NCBI GenBank assembly: GCA_016194625.1
Contig: JACQBB010000349.1
Span: forward strand, 1 to 8,247
Length of the DNA stretch: 8,247 nt
Source: Elusimicrobiota bacterium
Lineage (GTDB): Bacteria; Elusimicrobiota; Elusimicrobia; UBA1565; UBA9628
Direction: 5' to 3'
Both the position numbers and the translations under genes were made by a program. The stretch's first letter is position 1; each line of letters opens with the position of its first letter. A model generated the notes under the pieces. That model was not told where the DNA came from and did no database searches. It saw nothing but the letters and a program-made list of their open reading frames with translations. Of the stretch, positions 1-8,247 are shown in pieces.

Positions 1-3000
1 CCCGCGGCCGTCCGTCCCGAGGCCCCGCACGTCCCCGTCGCGGTCGTCGGCATGGACGCCCGCTTCGGCGCGCTGACCGGCCTGCGCGCGTATCAGGAAG
101 CGGCGCTGAACGGCGCCGCCGCCCCTTCGGCCCCCGCGCTCGAGCGCTGGTGGGGCGCGCCCGCCGACCCCGCGCTGTCCGGCCGCTTCCTGCGCGAGGC
201 CGGCTGCGAGGCCGCCGACTTCCGCATCCCGCCGAAGGAGATGGAGGAGATGCTGCCGCAGCAGCTCCTCGCCCTGCAGAGCGCCGCCGCCGCGATCGCC
301 GACGCGAAGCTCCCCGAGGAGGGCCGCGACCGCGTCGGGACCTTCCTGGGCGTCGCCTTCGACATGGGCGTCACGCACTACGACTTCCGCTGGACGCTGG
401 ACGCGAAGGCCGACGAGTGGGCGCGCGCGAAGGGCTGGAGCCTGGGCCCCGCGGAGCGCGACGCCTGGCTGAAGAGCCTGCGCGACGCCGCCGGCCCCGC
501 GCTGACGGCCAACCGCGTGATGGGCGGCCTGGCCTCGGTCGCCGCCAGCCGCGTCGCGCGCGAGTTCCGCCTGGGCGGGCCCAGCTTCACGGTCGCGGCC
601 GAGGAGAACTCCGGCCTGAAGGCGGTCGAGGCCGCCCTGCGCGCGCTCCAGCGCGGCGAGGTGGACGCCGCCGTCGTGGGCGCGGCCGACGCGGCGGGCG
701 ACATCCGCGCGCTCTCCGGCGCGCACGCGGTGAAGCCGTACTCGGCCGCCGGCCGCGCGCGTCCGTTCGACGCGGCCGCCGACGGGACGACGCCCGGCGA
801 GGGCGCCGCCTGCGTGGTGCTCAAGCGCCTGGACGACGCGGTGCGCGACGGCGACCGCGTGTACGCGGTCATCCGCGGCGCCGGCTCGGCGTCGGGCGGG
901 GGCTGCGACGCGGCGGCGCCGACGGCGGCCGCCTGCGCGGAGGCCCTGCGCCGCGCGTATCAGGACGCGCGCGTGGACCCGACGCGCGTCGCCTTCGTCG
1001 AGTGCCACGGCTCCGGCGACCCGAGGGAGGACGCGGCCGAGGCGGCCGCGCTCGTCGAGGTGTTCGGCCAGGCCGAGTCCGACCTGCCGCTGGCGCTGTC
1101 CACCGTGAAGACCGTCATCGGCCATCCCGGCGCGGCCGCGGGCCTGGCGGGCTTCGTGAAGGCGGCGCTGGCCGTCTATCAGGAGATCCTGCCGCCCGGC
1201 CCCGCCATCGAGACGCCCGTCGCGCCGCTGGCGAAGGCGCGCGCGCGCTTCCACAGCCCGCGCCGGCCTTCTTACTGGCTGCGCAACCGCGCGAAGGGCC
1301 CGCGCCGCGCGGGCGTGACCTCGCTGGGCGTGGACGGCGGCGCGGTCCACGTCGTGCTCGAGCAGTGCGAGCGCGAGCCCGGCGACGCGCGCGTGGACGA
1401 CGAGCGCCGCCAGCCGCTCGGCGCGCGGGCCGAGGCTTTGTTCGCGGTCGAGTCGGACGACTCGACCGCGCTGTTGGCCGGCTTGAACGAGCTGCGCTCG
1501 TGGGTGTCGTCCCAGGACCCGTCCGACGCCGTCGAAGCCCTCGCCCGGCGCTGGTGGCTCAAGCGCGGCTCGGCGCCCGACCGGGCGCTCGCCTGCGCGT
1601 TCGTCGCGCGCGACTGGAAGGAGCTGCTCGCCCTCATCCGGCAGGCCGAGGACTCGCTGCGCGAGAATCCCGAACGCCCGGTCGCGTCCGAGCGCATCCA
1701 GCTCACCTACCGCGCGCCGCTGGGCGGGGACCTGGCCTTCGTGTTCCCGGGCTCGGGCAACCAGTACCTCGGCATGACGACGGACCTGGGCGTGCAGTGG
1801 CCCGAGATCCTGCGCCGCCAGGACATGGAGAACGGCCACCTGCGCGGCCAGATGGTGCCCGAGCGGATCGTGCCCTGGCGCCTGACCTGGGAGGCCGGCT
1901 GGGAGGCCGCGGCCGAGCGCGCGCTCAACGAGGACTACCACGCCCTGATCTTCGGCTCGGTCGCGCACGGCACCGTCGCCTCGGACCTGCTGCGCCTGCA
2001 CGGCGTGGAGCCCAAGGCCGTCATCGGCTACTCGCTCGGCGAGACCGCGGGCCTGTTCGCCACGCGCGCCTGGACCGCGCGCGACGAGATGCTGCGCCGC
2101 ATGAAGTCGTCGAGCCTGTTCACCTCGGAGCTCGCCGGCCCCTGCGACGCCGCCCGCCAGTTCTGGAGCCTGCCCAAGGACGAGAAGGTGGACTGGGTGC
2201 TCGGCGTGGTGGACCGCCCCGCCGACGCCGTCCACAAGGCGCTGAAGGCCGGCGAGCGCGCGGCGCTGCTCATCGTCAACGCGCCCGTGGAGTGCGTGGT
2301 CGGCGGCTACCGCTCGGCCGTCGAGAAGCTGGTCGAGGGCCTGGGCTGCGTGTTCCTGCCCCTGCAGGGCGTCAGCACCGTGCACTTCCCGGCCGCCAAG
2401 CTGGTCGAGGGCAAGTACCGCGAGCTGCACCTGTTCCCGACGCGCCCGCCGAAGGGCGTGCGCTACTACTCCGGCGCCTTCGGCAAGGCCTACGAGCCCA
2501 CGCGCGAGTCGGCCGCCGAGTCCATCACCACCCAGGCCGTGCGCTGGGTGGACTTCGCCGCGCTGATCAAGAAGGCGCACGAGGACGGCGTGCGGACCTT
2601 CGTCGAGCTCGGCCCGCAAGGCTCCTGCGCGCGCATGATCGGCAAGATCCTGGGCCCGCTCCCGCACTCGGCGCGCTCCATCGACGGCCGCGGCGTGGAC
2701 GACGTGTCCGGCGTGCTCAAGCTGTTCGCCTTCCTGCTCGCCGAGCGCGTGCCCGTGGACTTGAAGACCCTGTACGGCGGCCGCTCCTTCTGCGTCGGCC
2801 ACCAGTCGGCCCCGCCGCCGCCGGCCCAGCCCGTGCGCGTCGCCCTCGGCGGCCTGCCCAAGAAGGCGGCCTGGTCGCCCGCGCCCCCGTCCGCGCCGCC
2901 GCGCCCCGCGGTCGCGCCGAGCGTCCGTATTCAGGAGCCGCGCCTGCCCGGCGCCGGCCTGGAGCCCGCGTCTTTCACGACGACGGGACTATCACCGGTG

Positions 3001-5604
3001 ATACCCCCGATACGGTCCGACATATCGCGGGTGACGCTGGAGTCAGTGAACGCGGACGCCGCTCCGGCCGGGGCCTCCGCCTCCGCCGCTGAACTGACCG
3101 TGAAGGCGCACGAGACGTTCCTGAAGATGTCCGAGCGCTTCAACGCCTTCCAGGTCCGCAACCTCTCCGAGCAGATCCGTCTCGCGACGGGGGGAAGCGG
3201 CGCGGCGCAGCCGACCTTGGTGAGCGGGACCGCTTCCGTGCCGCGCCCAGATCCGACGGCGCCGCAGGCGCCGTCGAAGCCGTTCATGGATAGAGACGCC
3301 TGCCTCGAGTTCGCCGTCGGCAAGATCGGCCGGGTGCTGGGCGAGTCCTTCGCCCACGCCGACGCCTACCCGACGCGCGTGCGCCTGCCCGGCGAGCCGC
3401 TGATGCTGGTGGACCGCATCCTGTCGGTGAAGGGCGTACCGCATTCCCTGAAGTCCGGCAACTGCGTCACCGAGCACGACGTGCAGGCCGGCGCCTGGTA
3501 CCTGGACGGGGGCCGCATCCCGACCTGCATCGCCGTCGAGGCCGGCCAGGCCGACCTGTTCCTGTCGGGCTACCTCGGCATCGACGCCCAGACCAAGGGC
3601 CTGGCGATGTATCGCCTGCTCGACGCCCAGGTCACGTTTCATGACCACCTGCCTAAACCCGGTCAGGTCATCCGCTACGACATCACCATCGACGGCTTCG
3701 GCCAGCACGAGGACATCTGGCTGTTCTTCTTCCGCTTCGACAGCACCGTCGACGGCAAGCCCCTGCTGACGATGAGGAAGGGCTGCGCCGGCTTCTTCAC
3801 CCCGGCCGAACTGTCCAAGGGCCGCGGCATCGTTTTGACCGACGCCGAAAAAACCCCGGCCCCCGGGAAACTCCCGGCCGACTGGAAGCCGTTGGTTCCG
3901 TTCACTGATAAAACCAAGTTGTCCGACAGCGAGCTCTCCAGTCTTCGTTCCGGCGACCTGGCCGCCGCCTTCGGCCGTTCATTCCAAGTGCCGTTCGTCC
4001 CCGAAACTTTGCCCTCCGGAAAGATGAAGCTCGTCGACCGCGTCTTGGAGCTCGACCCGAAGGGCGGCCGATATAAGCTCGGACTCGCCGTAGGCGAGGC
4101 CGACATCCATCCCGACGATTGGCATCTCGTGTGCCACTTCACCGACGACAACGTGATGCCCGGCACGCTGATGTACGAGTGCTGCCTGCACACGCTTCGC
4201 GTGTACTTGATGAGGATGGGCTGGGTGGGCGCCCAGGGCAAGATCGCCCACGAGCCCGTCCCCGGCGTCACCTCCCAGCTGAAGTGCCGCGGCCAGGTGC
4301 TCGCGTCCACCAAGAAGGCCCGCTACGAGCTCCACATCAAGGAGCTCGGCTACCAGCTCGACGGCACCCCGTTCTGCATCGCCGACGCCTTCATGTACTC
4401 GGACGAGAAGAACATCGTCCAGATCACCGACATGTCCGTCCGCCTGACCGGCACCACCCGCCGTGAAGTGGAAGCCCTGTGGTCGAGCGCCCAGTCTGCC
4501 GTTCCCACGGGCCGGCCCCCGTATCGCCGTTCACCCTCTCTGTATGGCCCGGACAAGATCCTGGCCTACTCGAACGGGAAACCCTCCGAAGCCTTCGGCG
4601 ACAGATATCTCCCGTTCGACAAGGACCGCGTCATCGCCCGCCTCCCCGGCCCGCCCTACCAGTTCCTCGACCGCATCGTGGAGACGAAAGGCGAGCCGTG
4701 GGTGCTGAAGGCCGGCGCCGGCGCGACGGCCGAATACGACGTCCCCGTCGACGCGTGGTACTTCCAAGAGAACGGCCAGCCCACCATGCCCTTCGCCGTG
4801 CTCCTGGAAGTCGCCCTCCAGCCGTGCGGCTGGCTGGCCGCCTACTGCGGCTCGGCCCTCACCAGCCCCATCGACCTGTCCTTCCGCAACCTCGGCGGCG
4901 ACGCCGTGCAGTATGTGGATGTCACGCCCGACATCGGCACTTTGGTCACCAAGGTCGTGATGACCAAGGTCTCCTCGTCCGGCGGCATGATCATCCAAGG
5001 CTACGACATGGAGATGCGCGATCCTTCCGGTCGTCTGGTCTACAAGGGCGCCACCGAATTCGGCTTCTTCACCAAAGCCTCCCTGGCCGATCAGGTCGGT
5101 CTGCGCGCCGCCAAGCCGTTCGTCCCGTCGGGTCCCGGACGACCGTTGCCGTTGGTCGGCGGTTCACCCGCCCTTCCGGGTCCCAGATTGTTGTTGCTCG
5201 ATTCCGTCTCTCAGTACGACGCCCAAGGCCCGAAGAACCTCGGCGCCCTCATCGGCCGCCGCGCCGTGAACCCGAAGGAATGGTTCTTCGACGCGCACTT
5301 CTACCAGGATCCGGTGTGCCCCGGCTCGCTCGGCCTGGAGTCCTTCATCGAGCTGATGAAGTGCCACGCCCGCGACCGCTGGCCTGGCCTGCCGGCCTCG
5401 GCGCGCTTCGAGAGCATGGTCCTGGGCCGCAAGCACAAGTGGCTGTACCGCGGCCAGTACACGCCCGTCAACAAGGCCGTCGAGGTCCAGTGCTGGATCA
5501 CCGGCGTGGACGAGGCGACGAAGACCCTCACCGCCGACGGCCTGCTGTCGCGCGACGGCCTGTGGGTCTACGAGATGCGCGACTTCACCCTGCGCGTCGC
5601 GTAA
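1..5604 (+). CDS. pfaC: PUFA-synthase-like megasynthase subunit (KS-like/CLF, AT, FabA-like DH tetradomain), 5' partial
   Basis: Large cytosolic subunit of an iterative Pfa-type polyunsaturated (secondary) lipid synthase. The frame is open to the window edge with no stop. The first ATG (base 52) falls inside the conserved KS opening strand VPVAVVGMDARFG, so it is internal and the true start lies upstream. Residue numbers in this annotation count from that Met. Visible order: KS-like domain (about 1-440), KS-AT linker, acyltransferase (about 560-900), Pro/Ala linker with an amphipathic helix (about 918-1078), and four FabA-like hot-dogs (1079-1850). The first hot-dog carries the PfaC hallmark sequence (YPTRVRLP, GRIPTCIAVEAGQADL). 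KS-like/CLF followed by AT and DHs resembles myxobacterial Pfa3, or a PfaB-PfaC fusion; an intact KS may precede it. No ACP, KR, ER or C-terminal acylglycerolphosphate acyltransferase is seen. The stop is TAA at 5602-5604. The family is secure; the product is unknown. Confidence 0.93.
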   Translation, partial: PAAVRPEAPHVPVAVVGMDARFGALTGLRAYQEAALNGAAAPSAPALERWWGAPADPALSGRFLREAGCEAADFRIPPKEMEEMLPQQLLALQSAAAAIADAKLPEEGRDRVGTFLGVAFDMGVTHYDFRWTLDAKADEWARAKGWSLGPAERDAWLKSLRDAAGPALTANRVMGGLASVAASRVAREFRLGGPSFTVAAEENSGLKAVEAALRALQRGEVDAAVVGAADAAGDIRALSGAHAVKPYSAAGRARPFDAAADGTTPGEGAACVVLKRLDDAVRDGDRVYAVIRGAGSASGGGCDAAAPTAAACAEALRRAYQDARVDPTRVAFVECHGSGDPREDAAEAAALVEVFGQAESDLPLALSTVKTVIGHPGAAAGLAGFVKAALAVYQEILPPGPAIETPVAPLAKARARFHSPRRPSYWLRNRAKGPRRAGVTSLGVDGGAVHVVLEQCEREPGDARVDDERRQPLGARAEALFAVESDDSTALLAGLNELRSWVSSQDPSDAVEALARRWWLKRGSAPDRALACAFVARDWKELLALIRQAEDSLRENPERPVASERIQLTYRAPLGGDLAFVFPGSGNQYLGMTTDLGVQWPEILRRQDMENGHLRGQMVPERIVPWRLTWEAGWEAAAERALNEDYHALIFGSVAHGTVASDLLRLHGVEPKAVIGYSLGETAGLFATRAWTARDEMLRRMKSSSLFTSELAGPCDAARQFWSLPKDEKVDWVLGVVDRPADAVHKALKAGERAALLIVNAPVECVVGGYRSAVEKLVEGLGCVFLPLQGVSTVHFPAAKLVEGKYRELHLFPTRPPKGVRYYSGAFGKAYEPTRESAAESITTQAVRWVDFAALIKKAHEDGVRTFVELGPQGSCARMIGKILGPLPHSARSIDGRGVDDVSGVLKLFAFLLAERVPVDLKTLYGGRSFCVGHQSAPPPPAQPVRVALGGLPKKAAWSPAPPSAPPRPAVAPSVRIQEPRLPGAGLEPASFTTTGLSPVIPPIRSDISRVTLESVNADAAPAGASASAAELTVKAHETFLKMSERFNAFQVRNLSEQIRLATGGSGAAQPTLVSGTASVPRPDPTAPQAPSKPFMDRDACLEFAVGKIGRVLGESFAHADAYPTRVRLPGEPLMLVDRILSVKGVPHSLKSGNCVTEHDVQAGAWYLDGGRIPTCIAVEAGQADLFLSGYLGIDAQTKGLAMYRLLDAQVTFHDHLPKPGQVIRYDITIDGFGQHEDIWLFFFRFDSTVDGKPLLTMRKGCAGFFTPAELSKGRGIVLTDAEKTPAPGKLPADWKPLVPFTDKTKLSDSELSSLRSGDLAAAFGRSFQVPFVPETLPSGKMKLVDRVLELDPKGGRYKLGLAVGEADIHPDDWHLVCHFTDDNVMPGTLMYECCLHTLRVYLMRMGWVGAQGKIAHEPVPGVTSQLKCRGQVLASTKKARYELHIKELGYQLDGTPFCIADAFMYSDEKNIVQITDMSVRLTGTTRREVEALWSSAQSAVPTGRPPYRRSPSLYGPDKILAYSNGKPSEAFGDRYLPFDKDRVIARLPGPPYQFLDRIVETKGEPWVLKAGAGATAEYDVPVDAWYFQENGQPTMPFAVLLEVALQPCGWLAAYCGSALTSPIDLSFRNLGGDAVQYVDVTPDIGTLVTKVVMTKVSSSGGMIIQGYDMEMRDPSGRLVYKGATEFGFFTKASLADQVGLRAAKPFVPSGPGRPLPLVGGSPALPGPRLLLLDSVSQYDAQGPKNLGALIGRRAVNPKEWFFDAHFYQDPVCPGSLGLESFIELMKCHARDRWPGLPASARFESMVLGRKHKWLYRGQYTPVNKAVEVQCWITGVDEATKTLTADGLLSRDGLWVYEMRDFTLRVA
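22..1374 (+). other. Domain: ketosynthase-like / chain-length-factor domain lacking the active-site Cys
   Basis: The fold motifs of a thiolase-like KS are all present: the opening VAVVGM strand, the nucleophile-elbow region GPSFTVAAEENSG, VECHGSGD, STVKTVIGHPGAAAG and a C-terminal RRAGVTSLGVDGG strand. Aligned to the usual VDTACSS, the nucleophile Cys position is Glu185 (codon 604-606). The two catalytic-type His residues (His319, His358) and the Lys353 before the second one are kept. It therefore cannot form the acyl-thioester needed for condensation. It most likely acts as the chain-length-factor partner of an active KS or as a decarboxylase-like KS. The CLF role is inferred from its place directly before an AT, as in the KS-CLF-AT order of PUFA synthases. 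Confidence 0.82.
1729..2775 (+). other. Domain: PfaB-like acyltransferase
   Basis: Opens with FVFPGSGNQY (residues 564-572), the family variant of FPGQGSQ. The nucleophile elbow is GYSLGE with Ser661 (codon 2032-2034). The likely catalytic His is His778 in GVSTVHFP. A C-terminal VELGPQGSCARMI motif matches the FabD-type VELGPGKVL region. In FabD-type malonyl transferases an Arg that holds the extender carboxylate lies 25 residues after the Ser; the residue there is Ser686, in RRMKSSSLF. This argues for a non-dicarboxylic acyl substrate, such as starter loading or release of the finished chain. AT domains at this position in PUFA synthases have been linked to product identity and off-loading, but the role here is inference. 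Confidence 0.85.
2803..3285 (+). other. Interdomain linker: Pro/Ala-rich, with an amphipathic helix
   Basis: About 160 residues between the AT and the first hot-dog carry no catalytic motif. The first part (about 930-975) is Pro/Ala/Ser rich, as in flexible megasynthase linkers. A predicted amphipathic helix follows (about 1014-1046, beginning ELTVKAHETFLKMSERF, bases 3091-3190), then a second Pro-rich stretch. The helix could be a docking or dimerisation element, but this is inferred from composition only. Codon use is clearly relaxed here: three ATA Ile codons occur between 3001 and 3024. Confidence 0.6.
3286..5601 (+). other. Domain block: four FabA-like hot-dog folds (pseudo-DH, DH, pseudo-DH, DH)
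   Basis: Four consecutive FabA-like units are visible: HD1 about 1079-1255, HD2 about 1304-1470, HD3 about 1498-1675, HD4 about 1690-1850. HD2 has VCHFTDDNVMPGTLMYE and HD4 has DAHFYQDPVCPGSLGLE. Each pairs a His with an acidic residue 14 positions on (His1362/Glu1376 and His1749/Glu1763), the same spacing as His70/Asp84 of E. coli FabA, with Glu in place of Asp. HD1 keeps the acidic residue (Glu1163) but has Trp1149 where the His should be. HD3 (QENGQPTMPFAVLLE) also lacks the His. Each active unit therefore probably pairs with the preceding dead one as a double hot-dog. FabA-type DHs in Pfa systems are thought to dehydrate, and sometimes isomerise, beta-hydroxyacyl-ACP, which fixes cis double bonds. 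Confidence 0.88.
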
Positions 5605-6977
5605 ATACACCACAGCGCCCAGCCGATCAGCGCGGCGGTCAGCAGCAGGCACAGCCGCGGCAGGACCCAGCCGGCGCGCGTGTACAGCGTCCCGCCCTTC
5701 GTCAGGAACGCCGTCCCCACGACCACGCCCGAGGTGAGAGGTTCCAGTTCCGCGCGCACCGTGCCGTCGGGCGCGACGATCTGGGACAGGCCGGACGAGG
5801 CCGCGCGCACCACCCACAGTCCCGTCTCCACCGCGCGCGCCGCGCTCATCGCGGAGTGCTGGCGGTGCTGCCAGGCGCCCCACTCGCGCGGGTCGATGTC
5901 GGGCACGGCCAGGATCTCGGCGCCGAGGGACTGGACGCGGCGCGGGCCGTCCTCGAAGTCCAGGTCGTAGCAGATCTGCACGCCGAGCACGCCCAGCGGC
6001 GTGCTCACCGGGCGCGGGTCGCGGTTGGGCTTGAGCCGCGGCTCGACGAACGGGATCGGGTGGTGCTTGTCGTAGCGGCCGAGCAGGGCGCCGTCGGGGC
6101 CGAGCACCCAGGCGAAGTTCTGCTCCCAGCCTTTTTTGAGGTCGTCGGGGAAGATCGCCGCGCCGAGCACCGCCACCGCCTTCGACCCGGACAGCTGGCG
6201 CGCGACCAGCTTGCGCATGCCTTCCTCGCCGCCCGGCTGGACCGTGAAGCCGTACTCCGGCCAGACGACCAGGCCGGCGTCCTTCGCGCCCGGGCTCAGG
6301 CTGAGCTTGGCCATCTTGGGGATGTCGTAGTCCTCGCTCTGCACGGCGGCGGCGACGATCGGACGCCCGGTCGCCGCGCGCGGCCAGGCCGCGCCCCACG
6401 CGGCCAGCGCGACGACGGCCGCGGCCAGGACGCGGGCCGGGAGCGCCCGCCCGCGCAGGGCGAGCGCCAGCGCCGCGTTGAAGGCGACGATCAGCCCCGA
6501 CAGCCCGTACAGGCCGAACAGCGAGACCGAGCGCAGGAGCGGGGGGAAGGATGTCTGCGAATAGCCCAGCGAGAGCCAGGAGCACTGGAGCTTCCAGACC
6601 TCGGCGCGGAAGTACTCGGCGCCGATCCAGGAGACGGCGACCGCCGCGACCCACAGCCCCGGACGCTCCGCGCTCCAGCGCCGGCCCGTCCACCACGCCA
6701 GCGTCATCGGCAGGGCGGTCCACAGCGCGAACACGCACCAGAACGCGCCGCCCATCGGCCCGAACACCTTCACGATCCAATGCAGCGCGGGGACATAGAA
6801 GGCCAGCCCCGCGACCGCGCCGAGGTTCGCCGCCGCCTTCGCGTCCGGCGCTTCCTCCAAGGCGAGGAACAGCGGCACGAAGGCGACCCACGCCAGCGCC
6901 CAGGCGCCGAAGGGCTCGAACGCGAACACGAGCAGGGCTCCGGACGCGGCGGCCAGCAGCCAGGGGCGGAGAGGCAT
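5568..6977 (-). CDS. lnt: Apolipoprotein N-acyltransferase
   Basis: Inner-membrane enzyme that transfers the third acyl chain from a phospholipid to the N-terminal diacylglyceryl-Cys of lipoproteins, the last step of Gram-negative lipoprotein maturation. The 469-residue protein is somewhat shorter than E. coli Lnt (512). It starts with several hydrophobic membrane segments (residues about 1-215), continues into a periplasmic carbon-nitrogen-hydrolase domain, and ends with one more membrane helix (VLPRLCLLLTAALIGWALWC) and a basic tail. The catalytic triad is visible: Glu241 in VVWPEYGF, Lys304 in GRYDKHHPIPF and Cys336 in QICYDLDFE. I chose ATG at 6977; a TTG lies one codon upstream and no convincing ribosome binding site distinguishes them. 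It is convergent with the synthase gene, and its last 37 bases (5568-5604) lie inside that gene. It is transcribed divergently from oleA. Confidence 0.95.
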   Translation of the reverse strand: MPLRPWLLAAASGALLVFAFEPFGAWALAWVAFVPLFLALEEAPDAKAAANLGAVAGLAFYVPALHWIVKVFGPMGGAFWCVFALWTALPMTLAWWTGRRWSAERPGLWVAAVAVSWIGAEYFRAEVWKLQCSWLSLGYSQTSFPPLLRSVSLFGLYGLSGLIVAFNAALALALRGRALPARVLAAAVVALAAWGAAWPRAATGRPIVAAAVQSEDYDIPKMAKLSLSPGAKDAGLVVWPEYGFTVQPGGEEGMRKLVARQLSGSKAVAVLGAAIFPDDLKKGWEQNFAWVLGPDGALLGRYDKHHPIPFVEPRLKPNRDPRPVSTPLGVLGVQICYDLDFEDGPRRVQSLGAEILAVPDIDPREWGAWQHRQHSAMSAARAVETGLWVVRAASSGLSQIVAPDGTVRAELEPLTSGVVVGTAFLTKGGTLYTRAGWVLPRLCLLLTAALIGWALWCIYATRRVKSRIS

Positions 6978-7047
6978 CAACGGAGTTTAACCCCCGCGAG
7001 GGGCGGCGTCGAGGGGGCGATGCCGCCCGCCGAGCGTGCTTCGAGAT

Positions 7048-7056
7048 TGGTATCAT
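7048..7056 (+). promoter_or_regulatory. Possible extended -10 promoter element (TGGTATCAT) upstream of oleA
   Basis: A TG-N-TATCAT element, one mismatch from the TATAAT consensus, sits in the only AT-leaning stretch of the divergent lnt/oleA intergenic region. No good -35 is found 16-18 bases upstream, which is typical of extended -10 promoters. On the minus strand the same bases read TATGAT, so the element could instead or also serve lnt. The assignment assumes sigma-70-like recognition, which is unproven for this organism. Confidence 0.35.
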
Positions 7057-7085
7057 AGGCGTCGCGACGTCGAAGGCGATTCCTC

Positions 7086-7107
7086 CGACTGTTGGCGCCA
7101 ACAGTCG
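7086..7107. promoter_or_regulatory. Perfect 22-bp palindrome in the lnt-oleA divergent region, candidate operator
   Basis: The half-site CGACTGTTGGC is followed directly by its exact reverse complement, giving 22 bases of perfect dyad symmetry with no spacer. It lies 39 bases upstream of the oleA ATG and 30 bases downstream of the extended -10 candidate. The missing loop and lack of a T-run speak against a terminator. Length and symmetry suit a dimeric repressor such as a TetR-type regulator, but the regulator is not in the window and I do not recognise the motif. Confidence 0.6.
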
Positions 7108-7145
7108 CGGCTGTGGACTCCGGGGATGACTTCGACCGACCACCG

Positions 7146-8159
7146 ATGCGCTACACGAAGGTCTCGCTGTCCGGCCTCGCCTACGAGCTCGCCCCCGTCG
7201 TGGTCTCCTCGGCCGAGCTCGAGAAGCGCGTCGCTCCCGTCTATGAGGCCCTGCGCTTCCCGCTGGGCCAATTGGAAGCCCTCACCGGGATCCGCGAGCG
7301 GCGCTGGTGGGAGCCCGGCTTCCGCGTCACCGAGGGCGCGGCCCGCGCCGGCAAGAAGGCGCTGGCCAAGGCCGGCGTGCCCGCCTCGGCGCTGGGCGCG
7401 CTGATCTACGCGGGCGTGTGCCGCGACGCCTCCGAGCCCGCCACCGCCTGCGCCGTGGCCGACGCGCTGAAGGTCGGCCGCGACTGCGCGGTGTACGACA
7501 TCTCGAACGCCTGCCTGGGCGTGCTGTCGGGCATCGTGGACGTCGCCAACCGCATCGAGCTGGGCCAGATCCAGGCCGGCCTGGTCGTGTCCTGCGAGTC
7601 GGCGCGCGACATCAACGAGAGCATGATCGCCGCGATGCTGAAGAGCCCGACGATGGACACGTTCAAGCTGTCCATCGCCACGCTCACCGGCGGCTCCGGC
7701 GCCATCGGGGTCCTGCTGACGGACGGCTCCGTCGGTCAGACCGGGCCCAAGCTCCTGGGCGGCGCCGCGCAGGCCGCGCCGGAGCACTGGGACCTGTGCC
7801 GCTGGGACCGCGACTTCATGCGCACCGACGCGGCGGCCGTGCTCAAGAACGGCGTGGAGCTGGCGCGCGGCACCTGGAAGAAGTTCACCGACGAACTCGG
7901 TTGGAGCGGAGCCATCGTGGACAAGACCATCTGTCACCAAGTGGGGGGGCCGCACCGGGCCGCCGTGCTCGGCGCCTTCGGAGTGCCTCCGGAGAAGGAC
8001 TTCGCGACCTACGAATACCTGGGGAACATCGGGACGGTCAGCCTGCCGCTGACGGCGGCGTTGGCCGACGAGAGAGGCTTCTTGGAAAAAGGCGACAAGG
8101 TCGGCTTCCTGGGCATCGGCTCGGGGCTCAACTGCATGATGCTCGGGTGGGAGTGGTGA
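7146..8159 (+). CDS. oleA: OleA, head-to-head acyl-CoA condensing thiolase
   Basis: Thiolase-superfamily enzyme (FabH-like) that condenses two long-chain acyl-CoAs, without prior malonyl activation, into a beta-keto acid, the first step of long-chain olefin synthesis. The 337-residue length matches characterised OleA proteins (about 338). The nucleophile is Cys123 in DISNACLGVLSG. The other catalytic residues are His264 in ICHQVGGPH and Asn294 in YLGNIGTVS. The OleA-specific Glu, which acts in the partner subunit, is Glu97 in GVCRDASEPAT. It lies 26 residues before the Cys, the same spacing as Glu117/Cys143 of Xanthomonas OleA. I chose ATG 7146 because MRYTKVSLSGLAYELAP fits the family N-terminus; in-frame GTG 7113 and TTG 7092 are less likely, and no strong ribosome site helps. 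A G-rich run at 7943-7949 leaves the frame intact. It overlaps oleB by four bases. Confidence 0.92.
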   Translation: MRYTKVSLSGLAYELAPVVVSSAELEKRVAPVYEALRFPLGQLEALTGIRERRWWEPGFRVTEGAARAGKKALAKAGVPASALGALIYAGVCRDASEPATACAVADALKVGRDCAVYDISNACLGVLSGIVDVANRIELGQIQAGLVVSCESARDINESMIAAMLKSPTMDTFKLSIATLTGGSGAIGVLLTDGSVGQTGPKLLGGAAQAAPEHWDLCRWDRDFMRTDAAAVLKNGVELARGTWKKFTDELGWSGAIVDKTICHQVGGPHRAAVLGAFGVPPEKDFATYEYLGNIGTVSLPLTAALADERGFLEKGDKVGFLGIGSGLNCMMLGWEW

Positions 8160-8247
8160 GCCGCTCGCCCTGGTCGCCGTACTATCCGTTCACCGGCCGC
8201 GTGATCGACATCGACGGCCACCAGATGCATTACCTGGACGAGGGCAA
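8156..8247 (+). CDS. oleB: OleB-type alpha/beta hydrolase (beta-lactone decarboxylase), 3' partial
   Basis: Only about 30 codons are inside the window, starting at a GTG that shares the GTGA overlap with the oleA stop. A purine-rich GGGTGGGAG run lies just before it. The translated start contains YPFTGRVIDIDGHQMHYLDEG, beginning at about residue 9. This matches the N-terminus of OleB and the haloalkane-dehalogenase-like hydrolases (PFE...DVDGLRMHYLDEG type), where this region forms the first strands before the catalytic fold. OleB decarboxylates the beta-lactone made by OleC to give a cis-olefin. The nucleophile, acid and His lie beyond the window, so the family call rests on this motif plus the tight coupling to oleA. 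Another alpha/beta hydrolase remains possible. Confidence 0.78.
   Translation, partial: MSRSPWSPYYPFTGRVIDIDGHQMHYLDEG

Follow-up and report, generated by a model that had tools for sequence, protein, structure and literature searches.

A Pfa synthase gene beside oleA in an Elusimicrobiota contig: a probable part of a conserved gene cluster for long-chain polyunsaturated olefins

A gene for a Pfa-type polyunsaturated fatty acid synthase that lies close to oleA raises the question of whether the two form a dedicated locus, in which chains built by the synthase are handed to OleA. The stretch of DNA analyzed here (the window) is an entire contig of 8247 bases from an Elusimicrobiota bacterium and carries four genes or gene parts: the 3′-terminal four fifths of pfaBC, a gene for an Lnt-like protein, oleA, and the start of oleB. 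The three long reading frames have a third-position GC content of 0.94 to 0.96, in keeping with real genes. The synthase frame ends at position 5604 and the ATG of OleA lies at 7146, which leaves 1541 bases between them, as expected from the initial annotation (synthase subunit and OleA within about 1.5 kb). On the basis of sequence comparison, we regard the window as probably a piece of a pfaD-pfaA-pfaBC-oleA-oleB-oleC-oleD cluster that would make a long-chain polyunsaturated olefin, with a hand-over of Pfa chains to OleA.

The synthase part (positions 1 to 5604, plus strand, 1867 codons) was identified by Pfam and NCBIfam searches, by its relatives, and by its catalytic columns. Pfam recognized a ketoacyl-synthase domain and three FabA stretches; an acyltransferase match remained, at 32.0 bits, just below the cut-off of 32.7. 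The NCBIfam scores were below the cut-offs of both the PfaA family (249.6 versus 1010.1) and the PfaB family (76 versus 144.3). The best relatives in the protein database are about 2300 amino acids long and up to 84% identical, and those with a named source are mostly from Elusimicrobiota; the protein matches place the host in this phylum. Given the length of these relatives, the contig lacks about 447 N-terminal residues, among them the active KS. In the full-length relatives, PfaBC consists of KS-CLF-AT followed by FabA-like dehydratase domains, and PfaB and PfaC are thus contained in one protein, of which the window holds CLF-AT-DH. The CLF domain (approximately 34 to 1200, plus strand) carries, near base 604, a Glu where the KS has its Cys, the AT domain (approximately 1726 to 2775, plus strand) has its Ser codon at 2032, and the FabA-like dehydratase region (3271 to 5604, plus strand), whose closest solved relatives are FabA-type chains, has His codons at 4135 and 5296. 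The KS Cys was present in all 66 aligned proteins; the residue replacing it in the CLF domain was Glu in 54, Asp in 5, Ala in 4, and Gly in 3 of them. The AT Ser, both DH His residues, and both DH Glu residues were identical in 56/56 proteins. The conserved residues of KS, CLF, AT, dehydratase, and OleA are taken to have their usual roles in these enzymes. The identification of a Pfa-type synthase subunit holds; its 5′ side is cut off, and the Lnt-like gene sits before oleA. The initial annotation was also right that this is not a standard PfaC; it is, however, the known PfaBC fusion, which by itself gives no reason to expect a different product. In the classification of Shulse and Allen, Type I is described only as a "pfaBC fusion", and in this respect the synthase of the window, which lacks the KS, is Type I-like; the KS-CLF-AT-DH2 order is spelled out there for Types C and D (PMC3098273). 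In the complete genome G001 (locus L012, 9647 to 16480), the dehydratase-region match is split into four pieces, which hints at a sequencing error or a frame change.

The oleA gene (7146 to 8159, plus strand) is complete; its open reading frame opens with a TTG at 7092, and the ATG at 7146 is the likely start. The protein contains ACP_syn_III_C and Thiolase_N domains (Pfam) and passes the NCBIfam model NF006720 (477 versus a cut-off of 285). The nearest solved chains are 3fk5 (E value of 5e-63) and 3row (2e-62), which we take to be Xanthomonas OleA; 3s21 was also aligned. The Glu, Cys, His, and Asn columns were identical in all 56 aligned proteins (window counted), presumably representing the catalytic Cys, His, and Asn and a Glu supplied by the second subunit. 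The start of oleB (8156 to 8247, plus strand; GTG start) overlaps oleA by 4 bases and is cut by the contig end. It was identified by its translation and by a DNA alignment that continues into the oleB genes of four related loci (L081, L082, L083, and L091). Of the OleA/OleB pair that had been annotated, OleA is complete, whereas OleB comprises its first 30 codons only. A plasmid search with OleA yielded 38 records, all below 60% identity. In five loci (L034, L037, L050, L064, and L080), OleA measured from the first hit has 399 amino acids versus 347 in most relatives; the extra stretch appears as an alignment break in four of the five, and two of these records are titled as Klebsiella pneumoniae metagenome-assembled genomes and look mislabelled.

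To place this arrangement in the phylum, 340 Elusimicrobiota genomes were searched for OleA (E value threshold of 1e-20) and for PfaBC, the latter scored by the dehydratase region. OleA was found in 61 genomes, PfaBC in 62, both in 59, and neither in 276 (Fisher's p = 8.7e-60, a value that ignores the relatedness of the genomes). In 56/59 genomes with both genes, pfaBC precedes oleA on the same contig and strand. The gap measures between −28 and 6006 bases, with 47 of these 56 genomes at 212 bases or fewer; for G204, a gap of 1177 bases was counted from a pfaBC fragment, and about 12.2 kb separate oleA from the long pfaBC match. A gene order that recurs at this frequency points to more than chance, although the genomes are related and do not count as independent cases. 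The suggestion of a locus dedicated to passing Pfa products to OleA is well supported by this linkage.

In the three remaining genomes, the two genes lie on separate contigs. The pfaBC gene of G152 stops 60 bases short of a contig end, and OleA opens a contig of its own. In G233, 2.4 kb after pfaBC are free of OleA, and OleA is located at a contig start, so that the two are either unlinked or separated by 2.4 kb or more. No PfaBC match was detected within 11 kb upstream of OleA in G199; the region before OleA contains an AMP-ligase homolog, as does the insert of G204, and a large insert is therefore likely. PfaBC occurred without OleA in G149 and G207, where the match reaches the contig end, and in G192, where it lies well inside the contig. 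The latter (locus L102) is a different, divergent Pfa-like synthase: it is 37% identical in the dehydratase region, sits in a frame of 2847 codons, and comes with no OleA match in that genome. OleA without PfaBC was found at a contig end in G185 and, in G232, behind 3 kb of other genes followed by the contig end. Contig ends thus explain most exceptions; G199, G192, and possibly G233 are not accounted for in this way, and G199 and perhaps G233 represent a real break in linkage.

The gene content around pfaBC was followed in the best 80 (L001 to L080, overlapping with the genomes above) of 490 confirmed places from a contig scan: 25 from Elusimicrobiota, including L005 and L041, which bear just the title "bacterium" and were counted by similarity, and 55 others. 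Loci with fewer than 1200 bases downstream (5/25 and 8/55, respectively) were set aside; one of these eight, L023, shows a cut OleA. The initial annotation had proposed a search for PfaA-like and PfaD-like proteins, OleC, OleD, and a phosphopantetheinyl transferase (PPTase). In the present case, pfaA, pfaD, oleC, oleD, and most of oleB are seen only in relatives, where the order is pfaD-pfaA-pfaBC-oleA-oleB-oleC-oleD. Among the best 80 of 490 loci, pfaA and pfaD were located upstream in 13/13 Elusimicrobiota loci with at least 7500 bases on that side, oleA was found downstream in 20/20 with at least 1200 bases after pfaBC, and oleA, oleB, oleC, and oleD were all found in 20/20 with at least 6500 bases downstream. 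In this synthase type, PfaA has the architecture KS-MAT-ACPn-KR and PfaD is an ER. The PfaA of L003 passes TIGR02813 (1421 versus 1010.1 bits), and the PfaD proteins of L014 and L022 pass TIGR02814. OleC (L003 and L022) and OleD (L022) gave strong olefin-family matches that remain under the strict curated cut-offs; OleC of L003 scored 548.9 and 528.1 versus the olefin beta-lactone synthetase cut-offs of 900 and 850, and OleC of L022 was likewise below both. A PPTase, which would activate the ACPs, was found inside the cluster in 1/20 Elusimicrobiota loci, and PF01648 was matched in 8/8 genomes checked (2 to 4 matches per genome, one match below the cut-off). The genes, their order, their conservation, and the catalytic residues were all observed directly.

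Outside Elusimicrobiota, oleA lies downstream of pfaBC in 39/47 loci with enough sequence, again among the best 80 of 490. By title, the non-Elusimicrobiota loci come from Geobacter and other Desulfuromonadales, other former Deltaproteobacteria, Planctomycetota, Acidobacteria, Hydrogenedentes, Lentisphaeria, Gammaproteobacteria, and more. A linked OleA was absent at the other 8/47; three of these loci offer only 1.3 to 4.2 kb, and five (L054, L055, L059, L067, and L075) have no OleA beside PfaBC in 8 to 10 kb downstream. Seven of the eight genomes have OleA elsewhere and one has none; three of the seven proteins are only 39 to 40% identical to OleA of the window. Conservation of linkage in relatives holds for the large majority, although unlinked cases (these eight loci and G199) occur at low frequency. 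Distances between pfaBC and oleA vary also in this set (L030, 183 bases; L041, 752; L071, 8).

Co-inheritance was assessed by distances and trees for 55 loci and the window, after L023, L026, L029, L042, and L049 had been dropped because the frames read from their first hits were short. OleA and PfaBC distances were correlated with an r of 0.886, and 0/2000 permutations reached this value. The two trees have 28/53 splits in common, compared to a mean of 0.21 and a maximum of 2 in 200 tip shuffles. The best Elusimicrobiota clade contains 17/20 members in the OleA tree and 19/20 in the PfaBC tree. Among 31 OleA splits with good support, 9 are contradicted by a PfaBC split that is itself well supported. 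The correlation could also stem from shared host ancestry.

The arrangement as such is already known, and published work contradicts the statement in the initial annotation that pfa and ole genes are not normally neighbors. Shulse and Allen (2011) describe the two sets as often linked (PMC3098273), and linkage is also reported in PMC4882568 and PMC6463001. In Geobacter bemidjiensis, pfaD, A, B, C, oleA, B, C, D, and pfaE are arranged in tandem (PMC4882568), and the organism makes the C31:9 hydrocarbon hentriacontanonaene (PMC4882568, PMC3098273). Compared with this published description, relatives of the window have the same order from pfaD to oleD; PfaBC is fused in both, and the closest records from outside the phylum include some of Geobacter (approximately 45 to 55% identity). 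In contrast to G. bemidjiensis, Elusimicrobiota have the PPTase gene in the cluster in only 1 of the 20 loci, a DUF4384-like gene before pfaBC in 10/25 loci, and, in the window, an insertion between pfaBC and oleA. Shewanella resembles the proposed pathway in that a Pfa-derived 16:4 chain is joined by OleA on the way to C31:9 (PMC6463001) and differs by separate pfaB and pfaC genes (Type A; PMC3098273) and by ole genes that, in some hosts, can lie at a distant genomic position. Photobacterium profundum SS9 (Type A) has separate PfaB and PfaC proteins, carries a gene for PfaT, a thioesterase linked to pfa or ole in marine strains, between the two operons, and makes EPA. Its pfa and ole operons are neighbors on the chromosome, yet no hydrocarbon was detected (PMC6463001). 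Linkage therefore does not prove the product. The only Elusimicrobia entry among the types in the excerpt of PMC3098273 is Type R of Elusimicrobium minutum, a Pfa-like synthase from the same phylum that differs in consisting of a single KS-MAT-CLF-ACP-KR protein and a PPTase. No report of the present cluster in Elusimicrobiota was found in the open-access PMC literature, which is weak evidence of absence, and no hydrocarbon measurements for the phylum were found in the literature. As far as found, it is the phylum that is new for the Pfa-Ole arrangement.

The transfer between ACP and OleA, the reactions, and the product are inferred from papers on Geobacter, Shewanella, and Photobacterium and from general knowledge of the enzymes. 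On the ACP domains of PfaA, the Pfa synthase would assemble a polyunsaturated acyl chain, with KS/CLF condensing, KR reducing, and the FabA-like domains dehydrating and isomerizing, and PfaD would reduce selected double bonds. OleA would then take two Pfa chains, probably straight off the ACPs, and join them head to head, and OleD, OleC, and OleB would convert its product into a polyunsaturated olefin of long chain length, for which hentriacontanonaene (C31:9) or a closely related compound is the most likely candidate. Heterologous work is in line with such a route: expression of the pfa operon and oleA in E. coli gave a 31:8 ketone, and the authors argue that OleA acts on Pfa ACPs (PMC6463001).

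Alternatively, the Pfa synthase could make membrane polyunsaturated fatty acids while OleA joins type II fatty acids, the genes being neighbors for shared regulation only. Marine strains provide a precedent, as Pfa makes EPA or DHA for phospholipids there and OleA homologs are reported to use type II or Pfa chains (PMC6463001). We consider this unlikely, since OleA in Elusimicrobiota is rarely found without PfaBC (59/61 genomes have both, and the sequence of G185 and G232 ends at OleA or 3 kb before it) and OleA of bacteria producing polyunsaturated fatty acids is reported to condense only the Pfa-derived 16:4 chain in spite of the presence of type II fatty acids (PMC6463001). That the route stops at a ketone or beta-lactone appears very unlikely: the 31:8 ketone from E. 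coli and the sub-cut-off OleC scores of L003 and L022 would fit such an end product, but oleB, oleC, and oleD all follow oleA in each of the 20 Elusimicrobiota loci with enough sequence.

A pathway that is read correctly but yields a product other than C31:9, differing in chain length or double bonds, is compatible with the preferred reading and a serious possibility, if not the expected outcome. PfaBC shares about 50% identity with its Geobacter homologs and an additional lipoprotein gene is present in some Elusimicrobiota operons, whereas domain types and catalytic residues are as in the aligned Geobacter loci. This lipoprotein, encoded just before pfaBC in 10/25 Elusimicrobiota loci (L003, 8970 to 9986, and nine others), was predicted from a lipobox recognized by eye and a DUF4384 match below the Pfam cut-off. 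Its candidacy as a pathway-specific part was weakened by the genome survey: DUF4384-like matches occurred in 47/340 genomes, and 18 of the 47 carriers lack PfaBC. A more far-reaching version, in which a hydrocarbon-only Pfa feeds just OleA, no membrane polyunsaturated fatty acids are made, the product is unlike C31:9, and the lipoprotein helps to place or export it in part of the phylum, strikes us as rather unlikely. Under the favored assignment to Pfa-dependent olefin synthesis, the Geobacter-type Pfa-Ole cluster is extended to a mostly uncultured phylum, with the pairing quantified (59/61 and 56/59), and many Elusimicrobiota are predicted to make polyunsaturated hydrocarbons. Such compounds in groundwater or soil extracts would then not need to stem from marine Gammaproteobacteria or Geobacter.

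In the window, a further gene lies between pfaBC and oleA. It encodes an Lnt-like apolipoprotein N-acyltransferase homolog on the minus strand (5568 to 6980; ATG at 6977) and overlaps the 3′ end of pfaBC by 37 bases. The protein matches LNT_N (99.8 bits) and CN_hydrolase (78.3 bits) in Pfam and scores 120.2 against TIGR00546, below the cut-off of 132.9. Because this antisense gene splits the pair, pfaBC and oleA may not share a common transcript here. Participation in the pathway, e.g., as an acyltransferase acting on Pfa chains, would be suggested by its position inside the cluster and by two records on 132,135-base contigs, P0009 (PfaBC) and P0126 (Lnt, 80% identical), which hint that one relative may carry the same PfaBC-Lnt layout. 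We nevertheless rejected it as a pathway component and consider such a role extremely unlikely. No Lnt match at 1e-10 was obtained in the best 80 of 490 loci, 13 of which have fewer than 1200 bases after pfaBC; two weak matches (L046 and L055) are located away from the junction. At 1e-40, matches were found in 41/340 Elusimicrobiota genomes, in none of which the gene is on a contig listed for OleA or PfaBC. Resident Lnt relatives in 12 related genomes show 31 to 43% identity over part of the length, with 10/12 matching at 1e-5. The gene looks like local cargo or an insertion without a role in the pathway.

Relatives in which the gap is wide have unrelated genes at the same junction. L010 carries an Rce1-like protease there, L082 a type II restriction-modification pair of lower GC, and L086 and L088 have CsgG-like and WD40 proteins. 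A long insert in L081 encodes an AMP-ligase, an MBOAT protein, and a sulfatase, and next to it 203 bases of the pfaBC 3′ end are present as a second copy (95.6% identical). The pfaBC-oleA junction tolerates insertions, and the window is one such case. A perfect palindrome of 22 bp (7086 to 7107) lies 38 bases before the OleA ATG. It was dismissed as a conserved OleA operator, its 14-base core being present in 0/91 loci. In a comparison of 17 genomes, its 16-base core was absent from 14 and the controls gave 0 matches. The core occurred once each in G003 and G211 and eight times in the related genome G202 (loci L092 to L101); the palindrome looks like a dispersed repeat.
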